Source: Beijerinckiaceae bacterium
Lineage (GTDB): Bacteria > Pseudomonadota > Alphaproteobacteria > Rhizobiales > Beijerinckiaceae
Length of the DNA stretch: 64,000 nucleotides
Direction of reading: 5' to 3'
Assembly (NCBI GenBank): GCA_024304885.1
Contig: JALJOM010000008.1
Span: forward strand, 1 to 64,000
Shown one piece after another: positions 1-13,759 of this stretch. The notes under the pieces were generated by a model, which searched no databases, was not told where the DNA came from, and saw nothing but the letters and a program-made list of their open reading frames with translations. The translations under genes and the position numbers were made by a program. Each line of letters starts with the position of its first letter. The stretch's first letter is position 1.

Positions 1-120
1 GGAGTTCCGAGCCGCCGCGCCCCCCACCCGGCGCCTTCGGCACCACCCTCCCCCGCTTTCGCAGATGAGGGATTGCGCCCTGCCTTGCCGAACCATACCG
101 GATTATCCCTCCACTGAACG

Positions 121-207
121 GGCGAGCAAGCAAGCGGACGGACCCGCGCTCGGGGGCCGACGGACCATGAGCACGGGCCGCTTGCGCTGCGAGGGAGGGT
201 GGTCGCC
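121..207. repeat. Intergenic repeat family C, copy 1
   Basis: This stretch matches, with scattered mismatches, a second copy near 61840-61928. The shared core begins GCGAGCAAGCAAGCG and continues through CCCGCGCTCGGGGGCC to CGCTTGCGC. The rest of bases 1-280 is GC-rich and shows no convincing gene. Neither copy contains a reading frame that looks coded, so this appears to be a dispersed non-coding element. Confidence 0.7.
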
Positions 208-280
208 ATAGGGCGTGCGTCAGGACGCCCGTCGCAAGCGACGGGCTATGGCGACCGGGTGGGGTCCACATCGAACAGCA

Positions 281-423
281 GAGCGTCCGGCTTCAGCCGG
301 TTCCCCGGTGCCGCAAAGGCGAGGTGAAGCCGAGAAACCGGTTGGGGCGCCGAAGGCGCATTCCGCTGGGTATCCACGATCGAGTGTGTCTCGGTTCGAA
401 CTTCAGCTTGCGACCAAAGGGGC
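281..423. repeat. Intergenic repeat family A, copy 1 (upstream of grxC)
   Basis: About 140 bp is shared, imperfectly and in the same orientation, with 942-1083. Shared blocks include GCGTCCGGCTTCAGCCGGTT, GGCGAGGTGA, GCCGAGAAACCG and GAACTTCAG. The two copies bracket grxC. A short inverted repeat (CCGGCTTCAGCCGG) lies at the left edge of both copies. Confidence 0.75.
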
Positions 424-565
424 ATCCCCTTGCCCAGCCTGCGATGACTGAACTGGGCCGAAACCGGAATGGACGCATTGGACGCAAGATAATGCGATTC
501 CGGACATTCCTGCGGCATCGTTCATTGAGCTGACAGAGCCCTGCCCTTTCCGTCGCCCGCCGGAG

Positions 566-595
566 CTTGGCCCGGCGGAGGCGGAGCTTTATATA
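566..595 (+). promoter_or_regulatory. Possible grxC promoter
   Basis: A CTTGGC element at 566-571 and a TATATA element at 590-595 are separated by 18 bp, and grxC starts about 38 bp further on. TATATA stands out in otherwise GC-rich DNA. A GAGAAG ribosome-binding-like sequence precedes the ATG. No transcript evidence is available, so this is a pattern match only. Confidence 0.35.
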
Positions 596-632
596 GGGGC
601 GGAACCCCAATCCGAAGAGCGAGAAGTAAACG

Positions 633-896
633 ATGGCCGAAATTGAAATGTATGCAACGCCGACCTGCGACTATTGCGCGGACGCGAGAGCCTTATTCAA
701 AAAGAAAGGCGTGACATATAAAGAAATCGACGTTACCGGCTCGAAGGAGCTGCGCAAGGAGATGACCAAGCGCGCCAACGGCGGCGACACGGTTCCGCAA
801 ATCTTCATCGACGGAAAACATATCGGCGGCTACGACGACATGCGTGCGATGGACAAAAAGGGCTTGCTCGATTCGTTGCTCGGCACGGGCGGATAA
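633..896 (+). CDS. grxC: Glutaredoxin 3
   Basis: An 87-residue dithiol glutaredoxin that uses glutathione to reduce disulfides and glutathionylated proteins in the cytoplasm. The active-site motif C-D-Y-C sits at residues 12-15, close to the usual CPYC. The TVPQIFIDGKHIGGYDD segment carries the cis-proline and the glycine pair that bind glutathione. Length is normal for GrxC. The ATG is preceded by GAGAAG. The gene stands alone between two copies of repeat family A, with no co-directional partner inside the window. Confidence 0.95.
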   Translation: MAEIEMYATPTCDYCADARALFKKKGVTYKEIDVTGSKELRKEMTKRANGGDTVPQIFIDGKHIGGYDDMRAMDKKGLLDSLLGTGG

Positions 897-941
897 ACGC
901 TTGCATGATCGCCGGTTTGCTGATGAACGCAGGCAACGAAA

Positions 942-1083
942 CAGCGTCCGGCTTCAGCCGGTTCGACGGTGCCGCGAAGGCGAGGTGACGCCGAGAAACC
1001 GGGTGGGGCGACAAAAGCACTCTCCGCCAGTTTCCCACAATTGGATAGTATCTCAGTTTGAACTTCAGTGTGCAACCAAGTTC
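942..1083. repeat. Intergenic repeat family A, copy 2 (downstream of grxC)
   Basis: This is the second, diverged direct copy of the element at 281-423. It fills the space between grxC and the 3' end of the SIR2-domain gene at 1190. Divergence is moderate, so the duplication is not recent. The remainder of 897-1189 holds no supported gene. Confidence 0.75.
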
Positions 1084-1189
1084 CGTCCTTCCAGGCCACG
1101 CGGTCGATTGACCACTTCAGCCGAAAGCAGCACGGCTGCTTCGAGTATCCAAAAAGCGATGGGAGACATTCAACCAGGTGGATCGCCAA

Positions 1190-4100
1190 TTATATAGCGA
1201 TGACCTCTACGGCGACGGGCCCCTTTCTATTAAATCGAACGCGAAAGGTTACCTGCTGACCAAATTGGACATCGTCAACGACCGCTTCGTCAAAAGCTGA
1301 TCGATGGGCGAAGACATGATGAGGAAACGAACCGGACCGAATGAAGAAGAAATTCTCTGCAACGGTTTCAATGGTTCCCCTGTAGGTCGGAAGCAACTTC
1401 GTTATGGAGTTGTCCAGTTTGGGAGCGAGACGTCGAAATTCTCTCGGCGCTCGCCGATCGATCTCCTCAAACATTGCGTGCGCTTGATCTTTGTTACCCT
1501 TCTGAAATATCAGTTGCGCAAGCGTGTGGCGGGCTTCAAAGTTCTGGTCGCTTTGCACAAAGCTGTCACGCAGATGCCTTTCTGCGGCTTCCAAATCTGG
1601 GGGCTGTCGGGACAGTAGATATAGTGCCATCGCGAAGTGCGTTTCGCGATCCTGCGGGTCGCGCTGCAACGCCTCCCTCAAAATCGCTTCTTGTTCCTCC
1701 GTGCGCCCGGCAGCACCATGAATCTTGCTGATGCGGATGGCCACGCCCGTCTTCTTGGGCAGCTTCTTCCATGCTCGTTCCAGAGCCTTCAGGGCGCGCC
1801 CCTTATCCTTCAGTTCGCTCCAAAGCCGAGCTTCGGTTTCGAACATCTCCGGATCGTCCGGAAAGTCTTGCTGCGCCCTGGCAAGAGCTGCCGTGGCCTC
1901 CTTGAGCTTCTCAGCGAAGAAGCGATCATCGGACTCCCGCTCCGCATCGGAAAGGGTATCGCACATGTCCGCAACCTCATCGACTAACAGCTTGCATCTG
2001 CTTGAGACCGCAAACCGATCACCGCTCTGCATCTTGCTTAGGTGCTTGTCTGCCATCCGTCGAAGTTGCTGCTTCAGAACGGGAGAAGATTCACGGTTGG
2101 CTCTCTTGCGCGCAACTTCTGCTCGGGTGTGAAGGAACGAACCGTTCCGCGGCTCCGCGTCGCTCGCCGTTGCTGCTAGGGTCTCCGCTTCGAGGAAGTC
2201 GCCGTGGGGATGATTAGACTCGAAGATCGCCCATTGCTGGTAAAGGTAAGCTTGCTTGGGCGCCATCGCCACAGCTGCGCGGTATATGTCGCGCACTAGA
2301 TCGGCATCGCCAAAGGTCTCAACCAGCGTCCGCCCACGGCAGATGCTTTCCAAAACTCTTCGGTCGGACGAGTACCCGACATCTAATCCCTGGACTATGT
2401 GAATGAATTGCTTAGCCTTCGCGCTATCATCGTCACAGGATAGCCTGAATACGATTTCTGCGACGTGCACGTGACGTGTCTTATACACGTAGTCTTGCGT
2501 GTAGGGATCTATGTTCGTACTAATGATGTCTTTCAGCGGTTCGAAGAACTTCTCCTTGTAGTCGATGAAGTCGATACCTGACGCTCTGGAAATCGTGCCG
2601 GCCCGAACCGGGACCGAAAACTGGTTCATTGTAGCGATGTCGAGATACAGCCGCCGTGCCTGCTCGGGATACACCGCGTCGTATTCGTTCATGACGATCT
2701 TCTCGAAGGGGAGGCCTTTCGTGAGCACGTGCAGCGCCACAAGCAGTTGACGATCCGCATATTCCTCGCTCATGAAGGCAGCGATCTGGTCGGCCCGGCT
2801 CTTCTCTTTCAACTCTCCGAGACAGTCATTCCGCTGTAGTTTGTCGAGCAAGTCCTCGACCTCGGTAGATCGGAGCGTACCAACTCTCAGAAACTGTGGC
2901 ACAAGCACATCTTCCAATGGACCGCAATAGGTGGCCCAATCACCCTCTCGCTCCGCACCGATGATCACGACGGGAATGTTCCTCGTCTTCATCGTCTTAA
3001 CGAAAGGGATCAGCTTTTCGACGTGCAGTGCCACTTGGTCGACGAACAAATATATCGTACGACGAACAAGGTCGGCGATTTCAACGAACACTTCTGGCCG
3101 CAACTGCCCCGTTTCTCGCAGCCATAATACCAGCGCCTGATTGGCGGTGGCTGCGTCGAAAGCGGCACGCTTAAGCGCGATGGTCTTCCCTGCTCCACCA
3201 GGACCACGAAGAACGAAGAAGTAGGGGCCGCTAGGCGCCTCTAGCTCAAGCAGCGCTTTGAACAGGAGGTCATCGGTCACCTTGCGGCGCGCATCTAGCC
3301 GCTTAAGGATCGCGCCGAAGCCCGTGTCGTAGCCGGAATAGAAGCGCTCTGCCGTTTGTTCAGCTACTGCCATGCTCGCGTGGATCAGCAGAAGATCCTT
3401 ATCCATAGCAGATTTGATAGCATCAGATTCCTCGATATCAGCAGCATAATACTCTCGAATTGGAAATTTCGAGTCCTCTGGAGCTGGCGTCATGAATCGT
3501 AGCAATTTCGGCAGGGCCTGATCGAGCGCCTTCATGAATTCGCCGAATCTACATTTGAGGATTTCAACATTCTTCGAGTTCCAGAACTTGATGTCCTCGT
3601 CCTCGGCTGCAGGGTCGATAATGTACCACCGAGGCCTGCTTTTCTGGCTGAGACGGTAGATGAGCTGGCGCACATGGCCATCCGCAAGGGCATAGCCCAC
3701 GAAAATCATTGTCGCCTCGTGAGCCAAATCGTTGAGGCGGCCAAAAAGACGAGTTCTGTTCTGGGAATACTGATCGTACTGCTCCCATGACAGAATAAGC
3801 GGAATGTCTTTGTCTAAGCGGTGATTCAAGCAGCCATGCAGCTTCAGGTATTGGACTGGATCGGTCGCACGTCGCATTCTCTCGTCGACCGGCTCATCAT
3901 CCTTCACGAACGGAATGAGCGTCTGCTTTCGACGCTTGGAATCGCCATAGGCTTCCTCGACGAAAAGGTCGTAGTTCGTAGTGGCGATGGTGCGCCAATA
4001 AAAGTCAGTCAGCAGCCGGTGCGCCTCGGAAGGCTCAAACCCCTCGAATGCATTATTGACAGTCTCAAAAACGAGGCTTTGACCGGCGCCGTTTTCGATG

Positions 4101-4315
4101 GCCATCTCGGCGACAGTCTGGACATTTCGGGTGGGCATCTTCTTGCCCATGTACTTCTGAGATATGATATCTCGAAGGCCGTTTCCGTCCGGAGGGCTGT
4201 TGCCCTTGGCATTCTTGCATTCCTTGGATGCTCCAGCACCGAGGAATAGGACCGTCCTTCTATTTTTGACCGCATCGATTAGAAGAAACGGTATTTCGAT
4301 AGTTTTCTTGGCCAT
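1190..4315 (-). CDS. SIR2 / STAND-type NTPase / TPR protein with C-terminal cold-shock-like domain (putative anti-phage effector)
   Basis: A 1041-residue multidomain protein. Residues about 15-270 form a SIR2-like domain: VLFLGAGAS (22-30), ATTNYDLF (111-118), KLHG (158-161) and VGYALAD (206-212), the signature seen in prokaryotic NAD+-hydrolysing defence proteins. A P-loop NTPase follows, with Walker A GPGGAGKT at 371-378 and a Walker-B-like IYLFVDQ near 421-427. Residues about 650-960 are helical TPR-like repeats. The last 62 residues (980-1041) read like a cold-shock domain, with FFFIRS in the RNP1 position, HVFAHRS in the RNP2 position and a GPVAVEV ending. The SIR2-NTPase-repeat plan resembles Avs/STAND defence proteins. 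Inference: the repeats and the cold-shock module sense a ligand or nucleic acid, and SIR2 then depletes NAD+. The gene is alone and less GC-rich than its neighbours, which suggests transfer. Confidence 0.85.
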   Translation of the reverse strand: MAKKTIEIPFLLIDAVKNRRTVLFLGAGASKECKNAKGNSPPDGNGLRDIISQKYMGKKMPTRNVQTVAEMAIENGAGQSLVFETVNNAFEGFEPSEAHRLLTDFYWRTIATTNYDLFVEEAYGDSKRRKQTLIPFVKDDEPVDERMRRATDPVQYLKLHGCLNHRLDKDIPLILSWEQYDQYSQNRTRLFGRLNDLAHEATMIFVGYALADGHVRQLIYRLSQKSRPRWYIIDPAAEDEDIKFWNSKNVEILKCRFGEFMKALDQALPKLLRFMTPAPEDSKFPIREYYAADIEESDAIKSAMDKDLLLIHASMAVAEQTAERFYSGYDTGFGAILKRLDARRKVTDDLLFKALLELEAPSGPYFFVLRGPGGAGKTIALKRAAFDAATANQALVLWLRETGQLRPEVFVEIADLVRRTIYLFVDQVALHVEKLIPFVKTMKTRNIPVVIIGAEREGDWATYCGPLEDVLVPQFLRVGTLRSTEVEDLLDKLQRNDCLGELKEKSRADQIAAFMSEEYADRQLLVALHVLTKGLPFEKIVMNEYDAVYPEQARRLYLDIATMNQFSVPVRAGTISRASGIDFIDYKEKFFEPLKDIISTNIDPYTQDYVYKTRHVHVAEIVFRLSCDDDSAKAKQFIHIVQGLDVGYSSDRRVLESICRGRTLVETFGDADLVRDIYRAAVAMAPKQAYLYQQWAIFESNHPHGDFLEAETLAATASDAEPRNGSFLHTRAEVARKRANRESSPVLKQQLRRMADKHLSKMQSGDRFAVSSRCKLLVDEVADMCDTLSDAERESDDRFFAEKLKEATAALARAQQDFPDDPEMFETEARLWSELKDKGRALKALERAWKKLPKKTGVAIRISKIHGAAGRTEEQEAILREALQRDPQDRETHFAMALYLLSRQPPDLEAAERHLRDSFVQSDQNFEARHTLAQLIFQKGNKDQAHAMFEEIDRRAPREFRRLAPKLDNSITKLLPTYRGTIETVAENFFFIRSGSFPHHVFAHRSAFDEAVVDDVQFGQQVTFRVRFNRKGPVAVEVIAI

Positions 4316-4534
4316 GGATCACCAGCACATCACCTCTGGGCAATGTGCCTTAGGAACGGGGACCACGCAAATTAAGTGGCACTATCTGCGGCGCTCCATG
4401 AGGTCGCCGGTAAGGTTTGCTTTTTGGCAGTGGGTAAAGCACGCTGAACGACCGACCCGGGAGCTTTGCGGCCCTCCGACCGGCGAGCGTCCGATTTCGG
4501 GTTTCCATCCAAAGCCGAAATCCGAGCCGAGACG

Positions 4535-5110
4535 CTACCCACGATCGAGGAGGGTTTTCCGCGCCTCTCCGAGAGCTTTCTCGAAAATGTCGAGGCGCTC
4601 CACCGCCTGGGCGACGATCAGCGCGCCTTCGATTCCGACGATGGCGGCGGTGGCACGCTCGGCCGCCTCGGCCTTGCTAGAGCCTTCCCGTTCGAGCGAT
4701 TGCGTCAGCGTATCGATCCAGTCGCGGATCAAGCCGCCGACATCGGCATCGACCGGATCGCGCCCGCGCGAGAGCAGCATGCTGGCGACGAGGCAGGGCG
4801 CCGCGCCGCCGCGATAGAATCTGTGGACCGCTGCGAGCATGGCGTCGATCCGGGTCTCGAGCGGTACCTCCCGGCGGAGCGGCGCCAGGACATGGGCGTC
4901 GAGCCAGACTTTCGCGAAGCCGACGACGACATTCGCCATGTCGGCCTTGCCGCCCGGGAAATAATGATAGAGGCTCGACCGGCCGAGCCCCGTGGCCTGC
5001 GAGATGTCGCCGATCGACACGCCTTCGTAGCCCGCGTGGCGGAACAGGTCGAACAGGCGAAGGACGATCTCTTCCTTGGAGGTCGGCGCGCTCGGGTGGT
5101 CCTTGGTCAT
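4535..5110 (-). CDS. TetR/AcrR family transcriptional regulator
   Basis: A 191-residue one-component repressor. The N-terminal helix-turn-helix covers about residues 12-58 and includes VSIGDISQATGLGRSSLYHY, the classical TetR recognition segment. The C-terminal half is the helical ligand-binding and dimer domain typical of the LmrA/YcdF branch. The ATG at 5110 begins the conserved part of the protein; the frame stays open further upstream, but that extension only mirrors the neighbouring gene. It lies 149 bp downstream of the AhpD-like gene on the same strand. A 12-bp palindrome upstream of that gene is a plausible operator. The inducer cannot be told from the sequence. Confidence 0.9.
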   Translation of the reverse strand: MTKDHPSAPTSKEEIVLRLFDLFRHAGYEGVSIGDISQATGLGRSSLYHYFPGGKADMANVVVGFAKVWLDAHVLAPLRREVPLETRIDAMLAAVHRFYRGGAAPCLVASMLLSRGRDPVDADVGGLIRDWIDTLTQSLEREGSSKAEAAERATAAIVGIEGALIVAQAVERLDIFEKALGEARKTLLDRG

Positions 5111-5259
5111 GGCCGGACAATACCTGTCCCTTGCCGTGCCGTCACGAAGGTCGCTCGACGGCGCCGGCATCGCAGGTCTCCCTTCGACAGCTACGGCCCG
5201 GCCGCCGAAGCGACCGGGCCTCGCGAACCGACCCCGGGGGATTGGGAGGGACCCCGAGG

Positions 5260-5811
5260 TCAGGCGGCGCGACGGGCCTCCGCGACCGGGAAATCGACCT
5301 CGGTCGCGAAAACATTGTTCACGAGGTTGGTGAGGACGTTCACCGCCACGTTGGCGACGATTTCGACGACCTCGGCGTCCGAATAGCCGGCCGCCCGGAC
5401 CGCCTGCAGATCCGCATCGGTCACGTGGCCGCGCTCGGCCGCGATCTTGCGGGCGAAGCGGACGGCGGCATCGGCCTTCGGATCGTTCGAGCGCCCGTCG
5501 CGGTTCGCCGCGATCTCGGCCTCGTCGAGCTTGCCGAAGCGGGAGCCCAGATAGGCATGGGCCGAGTTGCAATAGGTGCAGCCGTTGACATTGGCGACCG
5601 CGAGCGCGATCCGCTCGCGCATGGCGGCGTCGAGCTGGCCCTTGGAAAGAGCACCGTTGAGGCCGAGATAGCCCTCGAGCGCGTGCGGGCTCACCGAGAA
5701 GACCCGGAACATGTTCGGGACCGAGCCCAAGAGCCGCTTGACGGCTTCGAGGTTCTGCTTGGCCTCTGCGGGAGCGGTCTCGATCGAGGCGGGGACGGAA
5801 AGACGTGCCAT
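5260..5811 (-). CDS. Carboxymuconolactone decarboxylase / AhpD-like peroxidase-related protein
   Basis: A 183-residue protein of the AhpD/CMD fold. The redox motif C-T-Y-C lies in NVNGCTYCNSAHAYLG (about residues 79-94), followed by the expected histidine; in this family the cysteines and histidine support peroxide or alkyl hydroperoxide reduction. The later NVLTNLVNNVFATEVDFP segment is also typical of the peroxidase-related subgroup. The ATG at 5811 begins the conserved region. It is likely cotranscribed with, or repressed by, the TetR-family gene that follows, because a palindrome lies about 60 bp upstream. The physiological substrate is unknown. Confidence 0.88.
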   Translation of the reverse strand: MARLSVPASIETAPAEAKQNLEAVKRLLGSVPNMFRVFSVSPHALEGYLGLNGALSKGQLDAAMRERIALAVANVNGCTYCNSAHAYLGSRFGKLDEAEIAANRDGRSNDPKADAAVRFARKIAAERGHVTDADLQAVRAAGYSDAEVVEIVANVAVNVLTNLVNNVFATEVDFPVAEARRAA

Positions 5812-5871
5812 TCGGGTCTCCTTTGCCGTGAGGGTGCAGGCCGTGCCCCACACCCACCCCAACAGTTTATG

Positions 5872-5883
5872 CCGAACGTTCGG
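5872..5883. promoter_or_regulatory. Putative TetR-type operator palindrome
   Basis: A perfect 12-bp inverted repeat, CCGAACGTTCGG, lies about 60 bp upstream of the AhpD-like gene, in the stretch where its promoter should be. TetR-family repressors commonly bind palindromes of this kind and often control their neighbours. The pairing with the TetR gene at 4535-5110 is inferred from position. Confidence 0.55.
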
Positions 5884-5960
5884 TACATACACAAGAAGGA
5901 ATTCGGTGCGTCGGGTCACGCTCTCGTGAAAGGCGCGCGACCGGAGGCTTCGCTGGCGGC

Positions 5961-6710
5961 CTACCGGCAGCAGGTCTCGTCGAGCAACTCCTCGGCCTCC
6001 GCTTTCTCGGTGCTCGTGGTCGTGGTGTCGAGGAGATAGAAGCCGCCGTCCGCCGCGCCGATCACGGCGAGCGATTGCGCCCCCATGTGGTGCCTTGCAT
6101 TGCCGAGGTCCCGGAGGACGCCGAACGGGCTCCTCCGGAGGGACGCAACCTTGATCGCATCGTAGTCGTGGCCGCGGAAGGTGAAGGCCCCCGGCTGCCA
6201 TGTGGTGGGGACGGTCGCGCGGGCCAGGGCGTCACGCACGGCCGCCTGCACGCACGTGATGTGGATGTGGAGCTGGTTCTGGCCACGCCCGGCGACCGAG
6301 TTGATGGCGAGCCCCATATCGACGGCGGGCTTGCCCAAGAAGCGCTTCGCCGCTTCCCAGCCATAGGACCAGAGCTCGGCGACGGGCGGAACCCACGCCC
6401 TCGGATCCTCGATCCCGGTGACCGGGACGGTCGGCACGATGAGATAGGCATCCGCCTTCGCCGGATCTATGTCGTGCAGGACGACGTAGCGGGCGGGCCG
6501 GTCGATCAGCATGCAGGGTGGCTTCGGAGGAACTTGCTCGAGGCATGCCTGCACCTCCTTCCACAGGGCATCGGGATCGTGCAACCGCCGCTCCAATTGC
6601 TCCACCGGCAAGGCTTGCGCATGACCTGGAACGGGCAAGACCACGATGCCGAGGCTTGCGACGAGCACCGTCACGCTACCGACACCCGGCAGGGCGTAAT
6701 ATCCCGGCAT
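5961..6710 (-). CDS. cdh: CDP-diacylglycerol diphosphatase
   Basis: A 249-residue secreted or membrane-anchored HIT-fold hydrolase that cleaves CDP-diacylglycerol to phosphatidate and CMP. The N-terminus has a hydrophobic segment ending in GHAQA, consistent with a signal peptide and periplasmic location. Diagnostic segments are INSVAGRGQNQLHIHITC, whose HxHxx histidines form the catalytic HIT motif, and LWKEVQACL near the mature N-terminus. Length matches the Cdh family. The ATG at 6710 gives the signal peptide directly; the longer open frame upstream overlaps the M28 gene and is not needed. It lies 59 bp behind the M28 peptidase gene on the same strand. Confidence 0.87.
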   Translation of the reverse strand: MPGYYALPGVGSVTVLVASLGIVVLPVPGHAQALPVEQLERRLHDPDALWKEVQACLEQVPPKPPCMLIDRPARYVVLHDIDPAKADAYLIVPTVPVTGIEDPRAWVPPVAELWSYGWEAAKRFLGKPAVDMGLAINSVAGRGQNQLHIHITCVQAAVRDALARATVPTTWQPGAFTFRGHDYDAIKVASLRRSPFGVLRDLGNARHHMGAQSLAVIGAADGGFYLLDTTTTSTEKAEAEELLDETCCR

Positions 6711-6769
6711 CGAGGTTCCCACGGCTCGGCGCGCGATGACCCACGCTGCAAACGGGCCGTGCCGGGGGC

Positions 6770-7654
6770 TCACGTTACGCCGCCCCGGGCGAGCTCGGCG
6801 AAAGCCGCGTAGAGCCCGGCGGTGACACGGGTGAGCTCCGGAAAGGCGATCTTGTCCGGCGTGTCGCTCGGGAGATGATAGTGGTGGTAGCGGTGGAAGG
6901 CCGTGTCGGTGATCATCACCGCCGGGTAGCCCTCGATCCAGAACGAACGGTGGTCGCTCCACCCCACACCGGGAATGAAGGGAAAGGTCGCGGTCGTCTC
7001 GAGCGGGAAGTCCGAATGCGCGCGGAAGGCCTTCGCCAGCCGCCGCATGGCGCTCCGCGAGCGGAAGTTCGACACGAAGCCGATGAAGTTGCCGCGATCG
7101 GGATGGAAATATTTGAAGATCGGGGGATATGCTTGTGTCTTCGGCGCGTCGAAATAGCAGCCGATGGTCTCGAGCGAGGCCATGAGCCCGATCCTGTCGC
7201 CGCGCGCCTTGGCGGCCCGCGCATAGACCATGCTGCCCTGCATGCGGTTGGCGAAGAAGGGAGCCTCCTCGTTGACGAAAGCGACGAAGCGCACCGTCAA
7301 TTCCGGGTGGGCAACGGCGAAGAGGCGCGACAGCTCGAGGAGCGCGGCGACCCCGGTCCCGTTGTCGTTCGCGCCCGGACTACCTCGAACCGTATCGTAA
7401 TGCGCGCCGACGAGGAGGATCTCGTTCTTGCGCGCGTTCCCGAGGCGCGTGACCTCGAGATTCTCGCACGTGATACCTCCGACCTCGTAGGTTTGACGCA
7501 CGACGTGGTAGCCCTGGAGCGACCATTGGTGGGCGATGTAATGCGCCGCCGCGTGGAGCTTCAAGGGGTGATGGACATTGCGCTCGCCGATCGTGCCTGC
7601 GAGGTGCTCGACGTGAGCACGCAGGGCACACGACAGAAAATTGCCCGAGTCCAT
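6770..7654 (-). CDS. M28 family zinc aminopeptidase-like protein
   Basis: A 294-residue metallopeptidase of family M28 (two-zinc aminopeptidases). The ligand set is visible in order: H85 in GAHYDTV, D97 in GANDNGTG, the E129-E130 pair in VNEEAPF with the general base, and a late histidine in HYHLPSDT. No signal peptide or transmembrane segment is apparent, and no PA or PDZ domain is fused, so it is a compact catalytic domain. The start at 7654 places the conserved domain about 20 residues in. It precedes cdh on the same strand and may share a transcript with it. The substrate cannot be predicted. Confidence 0.88.
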   Translation of the reverse strand: MDSGNFLSCALRAHVEHLAGTIGERNVHHPLKLHAAAHYIAHQWSLQGYHVVRQTYEVGGITCENLEVTRLGNARKNEILLVGAHYDTVRGSPGANDNGTGVAALLELSRLFAVAHPELTVRFVAFVNEEAPFFANRMQGSMVYARAAKARGDRIGLMASLETIGCYFDAPKTQAYPPIFKYFHPDRGNFIGFVSNFRSRSAMRRLAKAFRAHSDFPLETTATFPFIPGVGWSDHRSFWIEGYPAVMITDTAFHRYHHYHLPSDTPDKIAFPELTRVTAGLYAAFAELARGGVT

Positions 7655-7944
7655 GATAGGCCCTCACGATCGTCCGAGCAGGCTCGCCGTCTCGTAGCGA
7701 TTCCCCGCCGGCTTTCGCTGCGACCGGTTGACAATTCGGCCCGGATCGCGCTTGTTCGCCTCGGAAGTCTCGCCTCTCCGCGCCTCGCGGGTCAATAGGT
7801 TGCCTGTCTCGAGCACGCGTGCGCAGACCGCCGCAATTCCGTGACGGAGCGGAGTTTCGCGGTGCAGGCGGCTCGAGAGATCGCGCATTTTTCGTTCTGA
7901 AGGTTCCGTCGAGGACCATTTACAGCAATTTCCAGCGAAGCGGA

Positions 7945-8031
7945 TACCACTTCGCGTCGCGAAATTGCGACAAGCCAAGGACGTAGAGCGGCTTTCGAAT
8001 CCTCCGGATCGGAAACCGTTCCAAGCGCGTT
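7945..8031. repeat. Repeat family B element (inverted orientation)
   Basis: This segment carries GAAATTGCGACAAGCCAAGG, then a GTAGAGCGG core and a GGATCGGAAACCG arm. It matches, in reverse orientation, the elements at 9411-9537 and 46326-46464. The rest of 7655-8099, between the divergent M28 and glycosyltransferase genes, shows no supported gene and should hold both promoters. Confidence 0.6.
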
Positions 8032-8099
8032 CGGATGGACCTCCGAGGCCGGAATGGAGCGTCACTCCCGTGACCGACCAGTACCGAAAGAGGGATCGC

Positions 8100-9263
8100 A
8101 TGACCATCAACCTGGCGCTCGCTACGACGACCGAGGATCCCCGCGATCCGCTTGCCTGGTCCGGCACGCCCCACGCGATCCTTTCGGCTCTCGAAAGGCT
8201 CGATGGCGTCCACACCCACATCCTGGGTCCGCTCGACCCCGGCCCCAAGATTTTCGAAGGCATGCTCAAGGTGTACTGGGCTTTGCGCTCCAAGCGATTC
8301 ATGTGGGAGCGCGAGCCCGGCATTCAGCGGCGGTACGCCGCGCAGCTGGCGTCGAAATTGAAGGCATTGGACTATGACTTCGTTCTGACGCTCGGCTCGA
8401 TGAGCGCCGCGGCGCTGCCCGACTCCGTTCCTTATGTCCTTTACGGCGATTCGACCTTCGAGCTTCTGGTGGATTACTACCCGAGGTTGTCGCGAATTTG
8501 CAGCCGCAGCAGGCGTTACGGCGAGGCGATCGATCAGAAGGCGTTCAGCGGCGCCCGCCACATCGTCATGACGAGCACGTGGGCGGCGGACAGCGTGATC
8601 AATCATTACAAGGTGCCGAGCGAGCGCGTCTCCGTCATCCCGATCGGGGCGCAGCACATCTGCCGGCAAGATCCGGCCGAGCTGGAGAGTCGGTGGCAGT
8701 CCCGCTTGAACGGGCCGATGCGCCTGCTCTGGATTGGTGTCGAGTGGGAGCGCAAGGGAGGCGACATCGCCGTCGCGATCGCGAGTGAGCTCCATAGGCG
8801 TGGCATTCCCGTCCAGCTCGACCTGGCAGGCCTCACGCCATCCGCCGAAGTCGTGTCCCTGCCCTTCGTGAAAGCGCACGGATTTGTCGACGCGAGGACC
8901 CAGAAGAGCAAGCTCGAAGATTTCTTCCTGTCGTCCTTTGCGCTGCTGCTCCCGAGCCGGGCCGATTGCACATCCGTGGTTATCGCCGACTCGGCCAGCT
9001 ACGGCCAACCGAGCTTCGTGTCGGACACCGGTGGAATGCGGTCCATGGTGATCGACGGCGTGAACGGCGAGGTTATTCCGTCGGACGCGCCCGCCTCGAC
9101 CTATGCCGACGCGCTCGTCAAATATTGGAAGGACCCCCCGTCCTACCTCGATCTCGCGCGAGCGAGCCGTTCCCGCTACGAGACCGTTCTTTCCTGGGAT
9201 GTCGCCGTCCCGCACCTCTTGAAGGTCGCGACCACGGCCGTGAAAGAAAGCGTCTGCCTCTAG
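8100..9263 (+). CDS. Glycosyltransferase family 4-like protein
   Basis: A 387-residue GT-B glycosyltransferase. The C-terminal nucleotide-sugar domain shows RLLWIGVEWERKGGDIAV (about residues 203-220), the GFVDARTQ loop, and LLLPSRADCTSVVIADSASY with the late serine and acid positions of the GT4 donor site. The N-terminal half is the acceptor domain. AGAGGG lies 7 bp before the ATG at 8100, which decides the start over the longer open frame. The TAG stop lies inside the CTAG that opens the following repeat. It faces the O-antigen-ligase-like gene, so a role in surface polysaccharide synthesis is a reasonable inference. Confidence 0.85.
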   Translation: MTINLALATTTEDPRDPLAWSGTPHAILSALERLDGVHTHILGPLDPGPKIFEGMLKVYWALRSKRFMWEREPGIQRRYAAQLASKLKALDYDFVLTLGSMSAAALPDSVPYVLYGDSTFELLVDYYPRLSRICSRSRRYGEAIDQKAFSGARHIVMTSTWAADSVINHYKVPSERVSVIPIGAQHICRQDPAELESRWQSRLNGPMRLLWIGVEWERKGGDIAVAIASELHRRGIPVQLDLAGLTPSAEVVSLPFVKAHGFVDARTQKSKLEDFFLSSFALLLPSRADCTSVVIADSASYGQPSFVSDTGGMRSMVIDGVNGEVIPSDAPASTYADALVKYWKDPPSYLDLARASRSRYETVLSWDVAVPHLLKVATTAVKESVCL

Positions 9264-11994: not shown

Positions 11995-13014
11995 ATGCGC
12001 ATTCGAGAACTCTTCTCGGGAAGGCTGTTCCCCCGCGACGGGTTGCTCACCCTCGTCCTCGCCCTGCTGCTCGCCGCCGATCCGGCGGCGGCCGAGGTGC
12101 TGCGCCTCGCGGTGCAAAAGACCGGCACCTTCGCCTGGGAGCTCGAGGTCGTCCGGACGCAAGGGCTCGCCGCGAAGGCGGGGCTCGAGCTCGAGGTCAC
12201 CGAGCTCGCCTCTCCCGAGGCGACGCGGATCGCTCTCGCGGGCGGCGCCGCCGACATGATCCTCACCGATTGGCTCTGGGTGTCGCGCGAACGCTCGCTC
12301 GGCCGCAAGCTCGTGTTCAAGCCCTACTCGACGGCGGTCGGCGCGGTCATGGTGCCGAAGGGCTCCGCCATAGCCTCCCTCGCCGACCTCGACGGCAGGA
12401 CGCTCGCCGTCGCGGGCGGACCGCTCGACAAGAGCTGGCTCCTGTTGCGCGCGCTCGCCTTGCGCTCCGGGCTCGATCTCGCCGAGCGCGCGAAGGTGCT
12501 CTATGGCGCGCCGGCGCTTCTCTACGAGAAGACCGCCGCCGGGGCGGCCGATGCGAGCCTCACCTATTGGACCTATAGCGTCGCGCTCGAGGCGCGCGGC
12601 TTCCGCCGTCTCCTCGGCATGGAGGAGGTCGAGCGCCGGCTCGGCGCCGAGGGGCCGGTTGCCATGGTCGGCTATGCCTTCGACGAAAGCCTCGCTCGCG
12701 AGCATCCGGGCCTCGTCGAGCGCTTCTTCGCGATCGCGGACGAGGCCAAGCGGATCCTCGCCGCCTCGGATGCCGCCTGGGCCGGGATCGCGCCGAGGAT
12801 CGGGATCGACGATCCCGCGCAGCTCGCGCTCTATCGCAAGACCTATCTCGACGGGGTTCCCCGGCGCAGGGTCGAGGCGGAGGAGGCCGACGCGCGGCTG
12901 CTCTACGCCGTCCTCGCCGGCATCGGCGGGTCCACCCTCGTCGGTTCCGCTCCCGAGCTCGATCCCGGGACCTTCTACAAGGGCTTGGTGGCGCCGGCCT
13001 CGCCGGATCGGTGA
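11995..13014 (+). CDS. NitT/TauT-type ABC transporter substrate-binding protein
   Basis: A 339-residue periplasmic binding protein of the NMT1/SsuA type. An N-terminal hydrophobic segment ending AADPAAAEV serves as signal peptide. The motif GGAADMILTDWLWVSRER resembles the ligand-pocket region of ABC components for nitrate, taurine, sulfonate or thiamine precursors. The ATG at 11995 follows GGCAAGGG; a TTG at 11992 in the same frame is less likely. It is the first gene of an ABC operon, with the permease four bases downstream. The ligand is not predictable. The gene is very GC-rich, like the permease. Confidence 0.87.
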   Translation: MRIRELFSGRLFPRDGLLTLVLALLLAADPAAAEVLRLAVQKTGTFAWELEVVRTQGLAAKAGLELEVTELASPEATRIALAGGAADMILTDWLWVSRERSLGRKLVFKPYSTAVGAVMVPKGSAIASLADLDGRTLAVAGGPLDKSWLLLRALALRSGLDLAERAKVLYGAPALLYEKTAAGAADASLTYWTYSVALEARGFRRLLGMEEVERRLGAEGPVAMVGYAFDESLAREHPGLVERFFAIADEAKRILAASDAAWAGIAPRIGIDDPAQLALYRKTYLDGVPRRRVEAEEADARLLYAVLAGIGGSTLVGSAPELDPGTFYKGLVAPASPDR

Positions 13015-13018
13015 AGCC

Positions 13019-13759
13019 GTGTTCACCCGCCTCGCCTCGTTTCTCCTGATTCTTCTCGTCTGGGAGGGTGCGGCGACGCTCGCCGCCTCGCGTGCCTTGC
13101 CGCCGCCGCAGGCCGTCCTCGAGGTCATCGCCGCAGAGGTGCGCTCCGGGGCGCTAGCCCTTCATCTCGGCGCGACGCTCGCCCGCGTCGCCGCGGCCTT
13201 CGTGCTCGCCATGGCGGCGGGCACCGGGCTCGGCATGATCATGGGCCGGCGCGAGACGATCGACCGGCTGCTCGACCCTTGGATCATCGTGCTTCTGAAC
13301 CTCCCGGCGCTCGTCGTCATCGTGCTCGCCTATATCTGGGTCGGGCTCACCGAGGTCGCGGCGATCGGCGCCGTCGCGCTCAACAAGCTGCCGAACACGG
13401 TGGTGACGATCCGCGAAGGCGCCCGCGCGCTCGATGCCGGCCTCGACGAGATGGCGGAGATCTTCGTGATCCCGTTGCGGAGGCGGCTGCGGCATATCGT
13501 GCTGCCTCAGCTCGCGCCCTATCTCGCGGCGGCGACGCGCTCGGGCCTCTCGCTCGTCTGGAAGATCGTCCTCGTCGTCGAGCTGCTCGGCCGCTCGAAC
13601 GGGATCGGATTCGAGATCGGCGTCGCCTTCCAGCTCTTCGACGTGACGCGGCTTCTCGCCTATGCGCTTCCCTTCGTCGGCGTCATGCTGGCGATCGAGA
13701 CTCTCGTCGTGCAGCCGATCGAGCGCCGGGTCACCCGCTGGCGCCCGAGCCGGGCCTGA
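13019..13759 (+). CDS. NitT/TauT-type ABC transporter permease
   Basis: A 246-residue inner-membrane permease of the SsuC/TauC family with about six hydrophobic spans. The EAA loop that contacts the ATPase is visible as LDEMAEIFVIPLRRRLRHIVLPQLAPYL-like sequence around residues 141-168 (nucleotides about 13440-13522). The start is a GTG at 13019, four bases after the binding-protein stop, which implies translational coupling. Normally the ATPase gene would follow immediately; here an opposite-strand nuclease gene of about 1.1 kb intervenes and the ATPase resumes at 15054. Confidence 0.88.
   Translation: MFTRLASFLLILLVWEGAATLAASRALPPPQAVLEVIAAEVRSGALALHLGATLARVAAAFVLAMAAGTGLGMIMGRRETIDRLLDPWIIVLLNLPALVVIVLAYIWVGLTEVAAIGAVALNKLPNTVVTIREGARALDAGLDEMAEIFVIPLRRRLRHIVLPQLAPYLAAATRSGLSLVWKIVLVVELLGRSNGIGFEIGVAFQLFDVTRLLAYALPFVGVMLAIETLVVQPIERRVTRWRPSRA

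Follow-up and report, generated by a model that had tools for sequence, protein, structure and literature searches.

The subject of this account is a single gene on a 64,000-nucleotide stretch of contig JALJOM010000008.1 (positions 1 to 64,000, forward strand; assembly GCA_024304885.1) from a Beijerinckiaceae bacterium; that whole stretch is the window referred to below. A single reading frame at 1190-4315 on the minus strand, opening with ATG, encodes a protein of 1041 amino acids, P0001, that is assigned a SIR2-nSTAND5-TPR-CSD (cold-shock domain) order on the basis of the open reading frame (ORF), Pfam and a structure model. From the N-terminus, and with all coordinates on the minus strand, the SIR2 domain spans residues 8-262 (3530-4294) and holds the motifs GAGAS (residues 26-30), TTNYD (112-116; 3968-3982) and KLHG (158-161; 3833-3844). 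The Pfam match to nSTAND_NTPase5 covers residues 324-466 (2918-3346), with the Walker A motif GPGGAGKT at 371-378 (3182-3205). Helices and a strand pair follow at 551-643 (2387-2665), then the TPR array at 700-965 (1421-2218) and finally the CSD at 979-1040 (1196-1381), with FFFIRS at 989-994 and HVFAHRS at 1000-1006. Motifs and domain order had been proposed in a preliminary description of this DNA made from its letters alone; all the motifs lie where they had been placed, and the order is matched by Pfam above curated cut-offs: SIR2_2 at 84.3 bits (cut-off 24.5, residues 109-252), nSTAND_NTPase5 at 101 (34), TPR_19 at 36.7 (25), TPR_14 at 35.3 (23.5) and CSD (PF00313) at 30.0 (27, residues 979-1040). 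The anatomy of SIR2, STAND NTPase, TPR and CSD is virtually certain. The PADLOC and NCBIfam models cover only parts of the protein, chiefly SIR2 (PADLOC ThsA, 5.9e-14; NCBIfam Dsr2, 32 bits against a cut-off of 1400).

The core set of the family comprises 41 full-length members, the window protein included. Hidden Markov models of the four parts were built from family members, and Pfam at a limit of E<=0.01 serves as the independent check on the 41: SIR2_2 and nSTAND_NTPase5 each match 41/41, TPR_19 40/41 and CSD 18/41. The SIR2 catalytic pair N114/H160 is unchanged across all 41 rows (H160 aligns with KomC H146); T113 and D116 of TTNYD, K158 and G161 of KLHG, and K377 of Walker A are likewise invariant. 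The model of P0001 (AlphaFold2 on alignment A4; mean pLDDT 86.2, pTM 0.78) begins the SIR2 fold near residue 10, contains the TPR array, and gives to the last 62 residues, already proposed to be a cold-shock domain, five strands at 977-985, 989-994, 1001-1004, 1021-1028 and 1033-1040. A CSD profile made from 34 of the 37 rows of the same alignment (L039, L061 and L063 excluded) finds the Unr CSD at 3.4e-12 and CspA at 6.9e-11 in the PDB; all but five of its best 60 matches (to E=1) are named cold-shock, Unr/CSDE1, Y-box, Lin28 or CSD. The helices and strand pair at 551-643, with an invariant R614-H615 and defined by alignment and model, fall within the best-conserved region (481-690, mean pairwise identity 39.4% over 35 rows) and may be the winged-helix-like arm of a STAND switch. 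Over the same rows the mean is 37.2% for SIR2, 31.2% for nSTAND5, 27.9% for the CSD, 26.1% for the TPR and 22.0% for the linker 263-315; the greater variability of the C-terminal half fits a recognition half, though it is no proof of one.

The gene is as isolated and as odd in composition as had been claimed. It has no companion gene: the ORFs on its two sides, identified by eye, are glutaredoxin-like (633-896) and TetR-like. GC content is 0.541 in the gene and 0.656 in the part of the window to its right; none of 244 sliding 3.1-kb windows has a value as low, so within the window no other stretch of this length is as rich in AT. One copy of the family gene is present in the genome. The adjoining segment 453-950, which contains the glutaredoxin-like ORF, is 97% identical to G000:C6:85029-85525, near which lie ORFs that by eye resemble a transposase and a TraA relaxase; with two genomes of the same genus its identity is 94-96%. 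Direct repeats flank it (282-380/943-1041 at 83%, 386-417/1048-1079 at 81%). Short dispersed repeats, with many copies in this and other genomes of the genus, occupy 105-266.

The family is patchily spread; all counts from the collections are lower bounds, because the scans use short peptide patterns. Named genomes yield 65 loci: in 31 the four parts are all present in an intact gene (L053, L062 and L066 duplicate L032, L035 and L002), 3 are disrupted (L041, L058, and L042, so counted because a stop interrupts its SIR2), 13 hold SIR2-nSTAND5 without a CSD (including the cut-short copy L075) and 18 hold SIR2 only (two of them, L064 and L071, run off contig ends). On viral contigs all four parts are present in 6/23 loci, to which a further scan adds L207 (6961-10163), whose SIR2 and NTPase-TPR-CSD are encoded in two different, overlapping frames; the gene is broken here, or the form consists of two genes. 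Among 72,556 plasmid records 14 match at >=80% coverage, 9 of them from Klebsiella, and the 7 plasmid copies inspected are intact in 5 cases and broken in 2. Of 5,426 E. coli genomes compared by DNA similarity, 1 has a relative. The order sample (297 genomes) has full-length copies in the window's own genome and in G040 and a cut-short copy in G189. At 1e-20 the phylum sample (398 genomes) has the own genome only, besides a short form in G270, and a second search of 398 genomes of the phylum, with 2 candidates scored in each, likewise found a full-length match in the own genome only. The genus sample (15 genomes) contains the own copy, a broken copy in G666 and a SIR2-only match in G656. Disrupted copies (L034, L036, L041, L042, L058, L174, L075) recur, and gene loss may be common, as with costly defence genes.

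A shorter, CSD-less form, kept apart from the four-part family, is represented by 10 rows of ~815 amino acids (L076, L078-L084, L086, L109) and by L077, a 1088-residue form from a Thermoplasmata metagenome-assembled genome; SIR2_2 and nSTAND5 match 11/11 of these, TPR and CSD 0/11 at E<=0.01. L199 (1439-2437, minus strand), found through the family CSD profile as a TPR-CSD relative, was set aside; by eye it reads as NYN plus CSD. A tree of 39 of the 41 members (near-copies L039 and L063 omitted; the N-terminal extension of L040, probably a mechanical read-back, left in alignment A2 and trimmed for the tree) groups mostly by taxon: Bacteroidota form a single clade, and members from Planctomycetota and Acidobacteriota sit at several places (3 and 2 changes) on long branches. 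These 39 rows make no strong case for recent cross-phylum transfer. L038 and L039, from two different genera, have 8.3 kb in common at 99.4%, which suggests recent transfer; the L038 contig is just 8.5 kb long and may be a stray.

When homologues were checked for housekeeping as opposed to mobile loci, many of those inspected proved to lie on mobile elements. The intact relative of E. coli N18-04097, WP_097725118.1 at L208 10007-13111, occupies the psu-int site of a P4-like satellite, in the gene order capsid, ogr/Delta, polarity suppression gene, family gene, integrase; antiviral systems are described at this site in the portion of PMC9122126 that was available. Elsewhere the family gene has a Psu-like gene on one side and an integrase on the other (L105), adjoins a head-protease gene (L104) or a TniQ ORF (L039), or lies near integrases (L108 and L207); in G666 the 3' part of the gene is separate and inverted, with transposase- and integrase-like ORFs near it (by eye). 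A head-scaffold gene, which we take to be P2-like, is three genes away in L106. In the plasmid annotations the family gene has among its neighbours a type I restriction locus on one plasmid, VapBC and an Abi gene on another, and PIN and zeta-toxin genes on a third. Within a set of 146 mechanically called neighbour ORFs (30 loci, 90-699 amino acids, <=3 per side; 10 more, from L038 and L040, were dropped) Phage_integrase is matched 8 times, Resolvase 5 times and Phage_ASH twice. PADLOC at 1e-10 assigns 24 families to these neighbours, one ORF each, of which several may share one ORF; they include AbiD, TnsB, type IIG and type I restriction, Mad2/3/8 and PglW. At L040, in Methylobacterium pseudosasicola, a second SIR2 gene (12541-13353, minus strand), ThsA-like (PADLOC 1.1e-30), lies 1.4 kb from the family gene.

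The P4 psu-int position, the viral contigs, the plasmids and the patchy and often broken copies bear out the anti-phage reading of the preliminary description, and an anti-phage function of the family is, on these sequence grounds, very likely indeed. The same evidence speaks against P0001 as a chromosomal signalling STAND protein with no link to phages, which would fit the finding that no mobile-element gene was recognised by eye beside the window copy; that alternative is most improbable.

The combination of domains, at first taken to be undescribed, has a precedent. The SAMD9 family of human SAMD9/SAMD9L and bacterial members was set out by Mekhedov et al. in 2017, and in the sections of that paper available its core runs from a SIR2-like domain through a STAND-like NTPase and TPR to a C-terminal OB fold, predicted there to bind RNA (PMC5445408); P0001 has this same order, with a C-terminal OB/CSD. 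There are also differences. Walker A of the SAMD9 family has glycine for lysine, whereas the P0001 family keeps K377 in 41/41 rows; AlbA_2 stands upstream of SIR2 in that family, although it is lost in some members, and many bacterial members carry an N-terminal kinase, as far as the same sections go (PMC5445408), whereas P0001 has no kinase and no AlbA match in Pfam at E<=10. P0001 also has no SAM domain, unlike SAMD9, and the retention of SIR2 Asn/His is a further difference from the SAMD9 family; a profile of the NTPase region does not have SAMD9 among its best 60 of 79 PDB sequences (to E=0.79). Because the Walker A mark fails and AlbA_2 is absent, P0001 is SAMD9-like in architecture but no member of the family. 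The CSD is one more domain common to the P0001 family and SAMD9.

A likeness between PaAvs5 and SAMD9 is reported in the available part of PMC12931631. Placement of P0001 with the Avs/STAND type, as had been proposed, stands for the SIR2-STAND-repeat plan and falls for the NTPase: P0001 likewise has an N-terminal SIR2 and C-terminal repeats, but Avs5, as described in that part, has nSTAND3 and ends with its repeats (PMC12931631), whereas P0001 has nSTAND5 and ends with a CSD. There is no nSTAND3 (PF20720) among the 17 Pfam rows for P0001 at E<=10; nSTAND3 matches 10/41 members (best 2.2e-6) and nSTAND5 41/41, and the NCBIfam Avs5 model (NF041814) gives P0001 14 bits where 1000 are required. 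By these profile tests P0001 is not Avs5. The ThsA, KomC and DSR2 effectors have the SIR2 fold and catalytic residues in common with P0001, and have regulatory parts or partners of other kinds. Like STAND/NLR-like anti-phage proteins at large, P0001 places its STAND NTPase between the effector and C-terminal repeats. The TIR-NLR/SIR2-STAND systems at psu-int (Rousset et al. 2022, PMC9122126) use the same genomic slot as a P0001 relative and have a STAND NTPase and C-terminal repeats, as P0001 does, and SIR2 can stand in place of TIR; the part of that paper available mentions no CSD, which P0001 has. The Retron Sen1 (Se72) cassette holds a cold-shock-like ORF according to the available part of PMC6868368; its model (NF038236) matches the P0001 CSD weakly (E 0.063), and the protein is separate and small (profile length 62), without SIR2 or STAND. 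No bacterial SIR2-STAND-CSD protein was found among the literature matches listed, a scope that left out Table S1B of PMC9122126.

An effector swap, with NTPase-TPR-CSD behind another N-terminal effector, was not found, in a search that tests it weakly: two scans of viral contigs with the post-SIR2 part gave at least one locus and five loci, all with SIR2, in the same frame or an overlapping one. PF25199 exceeds its cut-off in 18 of the 297 genomes of the order, at loci clipped ahead of where a CSD would show; the family SIR2 model matches 8 of these 18 loci and not the other 10 (L133-L136, L138-L140, L142-L144; 30 loci examined, 9 with SIR2), and the six best by the family nSTAND model all have SIR2 (for L128, in a neighbouring frame). 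As judged by these matches, the PF25199 NTPase does have other partners.

With a domain plan like that of an immune receptor, and relatives on plasmids, in prophages and in a phage satellite, NAD+-destroying phage defence is very probable. Specifically, P0001 is read as a single-gene anti-phage system of NLR-like type, in which SIR2 is the killer domain and phage triggers NAD+ loss, a reading given a probability of about 0.72; that the family depletes NAD+ is highly probable when considered alone. All functional steps are carried over from the named families. At rest the STAND module would be ADP-bound, and the TPR-CSD half would keep SIR2 inactive. A phage product, most likely a nucleic acid or nucleoprotein touched by the CSD/TPR surface, would release the switch; the NTPase would exchange nucleotide and the protomers come together, perhaps as filaments like those of the helical EfAvs5, ThsA and KomBC structures, which are matches of P0001. 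The clustered SIR2 domains, with catalytic Asn and His intact, would then hydrolyse NAD+, and the infected cell would stop ahead of phage progeny. That SIR2 might instead act on a protein or make a nucleotide signal is an outside prospect.

Several observations weigh against this reading of P0001 as a phage-triggered, NAD+-destroying receptor. No relative is present among 50,697 phage records, and no integrase was spotted by eye in the window ORFs at 1-9000. The counts of defence genes among neighbours have no control set, so that no enrichment is claimed, and when 10 of the neighbour ORFs were scanned again one by one, 9 had no PADLOC match. The C-terminal segment is alignable in 41/41 members, but 23 of these have no Pfam CSD match at E<=0.01, and L061 is without the stretch around RNP1. 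In the CspA alignment residues 989, 991, 1002 and 1004 correspond to RNP1/RNP2 residues (presumably F18, F20, F31 and H33 in CspA numbering); at position 1004 His occurs in just 9 of the 34 rows, which may mean a partial loss of the nucleic-acid face. This and the gap in L061 favour a CSD that no longer binds nucleic acid and serves, not as sensor, but as a structural lid, a brake or a surface for assembly, the TPR alone recognising a phage protein, and the repeat domain of Avs5 is indeed a proposed sensor in the available part of PMC12931631. Retention of the three aromatic positions, 989 (F/Y) in 31, 991 (F) in 30 and 1002 (F/Y) in 31 of the 34 rows, argues the other way, as does low dN/dS (nonsynonymous to synonymous substitution), which is compatible with a structural role too. 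Among close pairs of L105, L107, L108 and L208 dN/dS in the CSD is 0.03, 0.03 and 0.01 (the fourth pair is saturated), beside 0.01-0.05 for SIR2; these values are rough, the pairs sharing rows and many having dS > 1, and the window-L031 pair is saturated. Purifying selection is seen in this one close group. The CSD as a nucleic-acid sensor is put forward tentatively, at somewhat below even odds, and as a brake or structural part a little lower still. That an immune receptor ends in a domain known from abundant host proteins also suggests an integrated decoy, in which the CSD mimics host Csp and a phage protein that targets Csp binds it and fires SIR2; plant NLRs carry integrated domains, and the analogy is offered for the CSD, for which such a role is unlikely.

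With the same SIR2-STAND-TPR-CSD plan, and with P-loop lysine and SIR2 catalytic pair retained, this mobile family could conceivably be a working-order counterpart of the SAMD9 core, its CSD reading phage single-stranded nucleic acid or mimicking host Csp; this is doubtful, with the odds nearer one in three than even. If true, it would constitute an NLR-like receptor triggered by nucleic acid or by a Csp-targeting phage factor, and the P0001 family would model what the SAMD9 OB fold does. The family joins bacterial SIR2-STAND defence (Avs5 and the NLR-like systems of the P4 hotspot) to human antiviral SAMD9. Since an E. coli P4-like satellite holds a relative, a laboratory strain could serve to test directly whether it defends, whether NAD+ is lost and whether the CSD is needed, and such tests could show the role of the OB/CSD end in the SIR2-STAND-TPR architecture.
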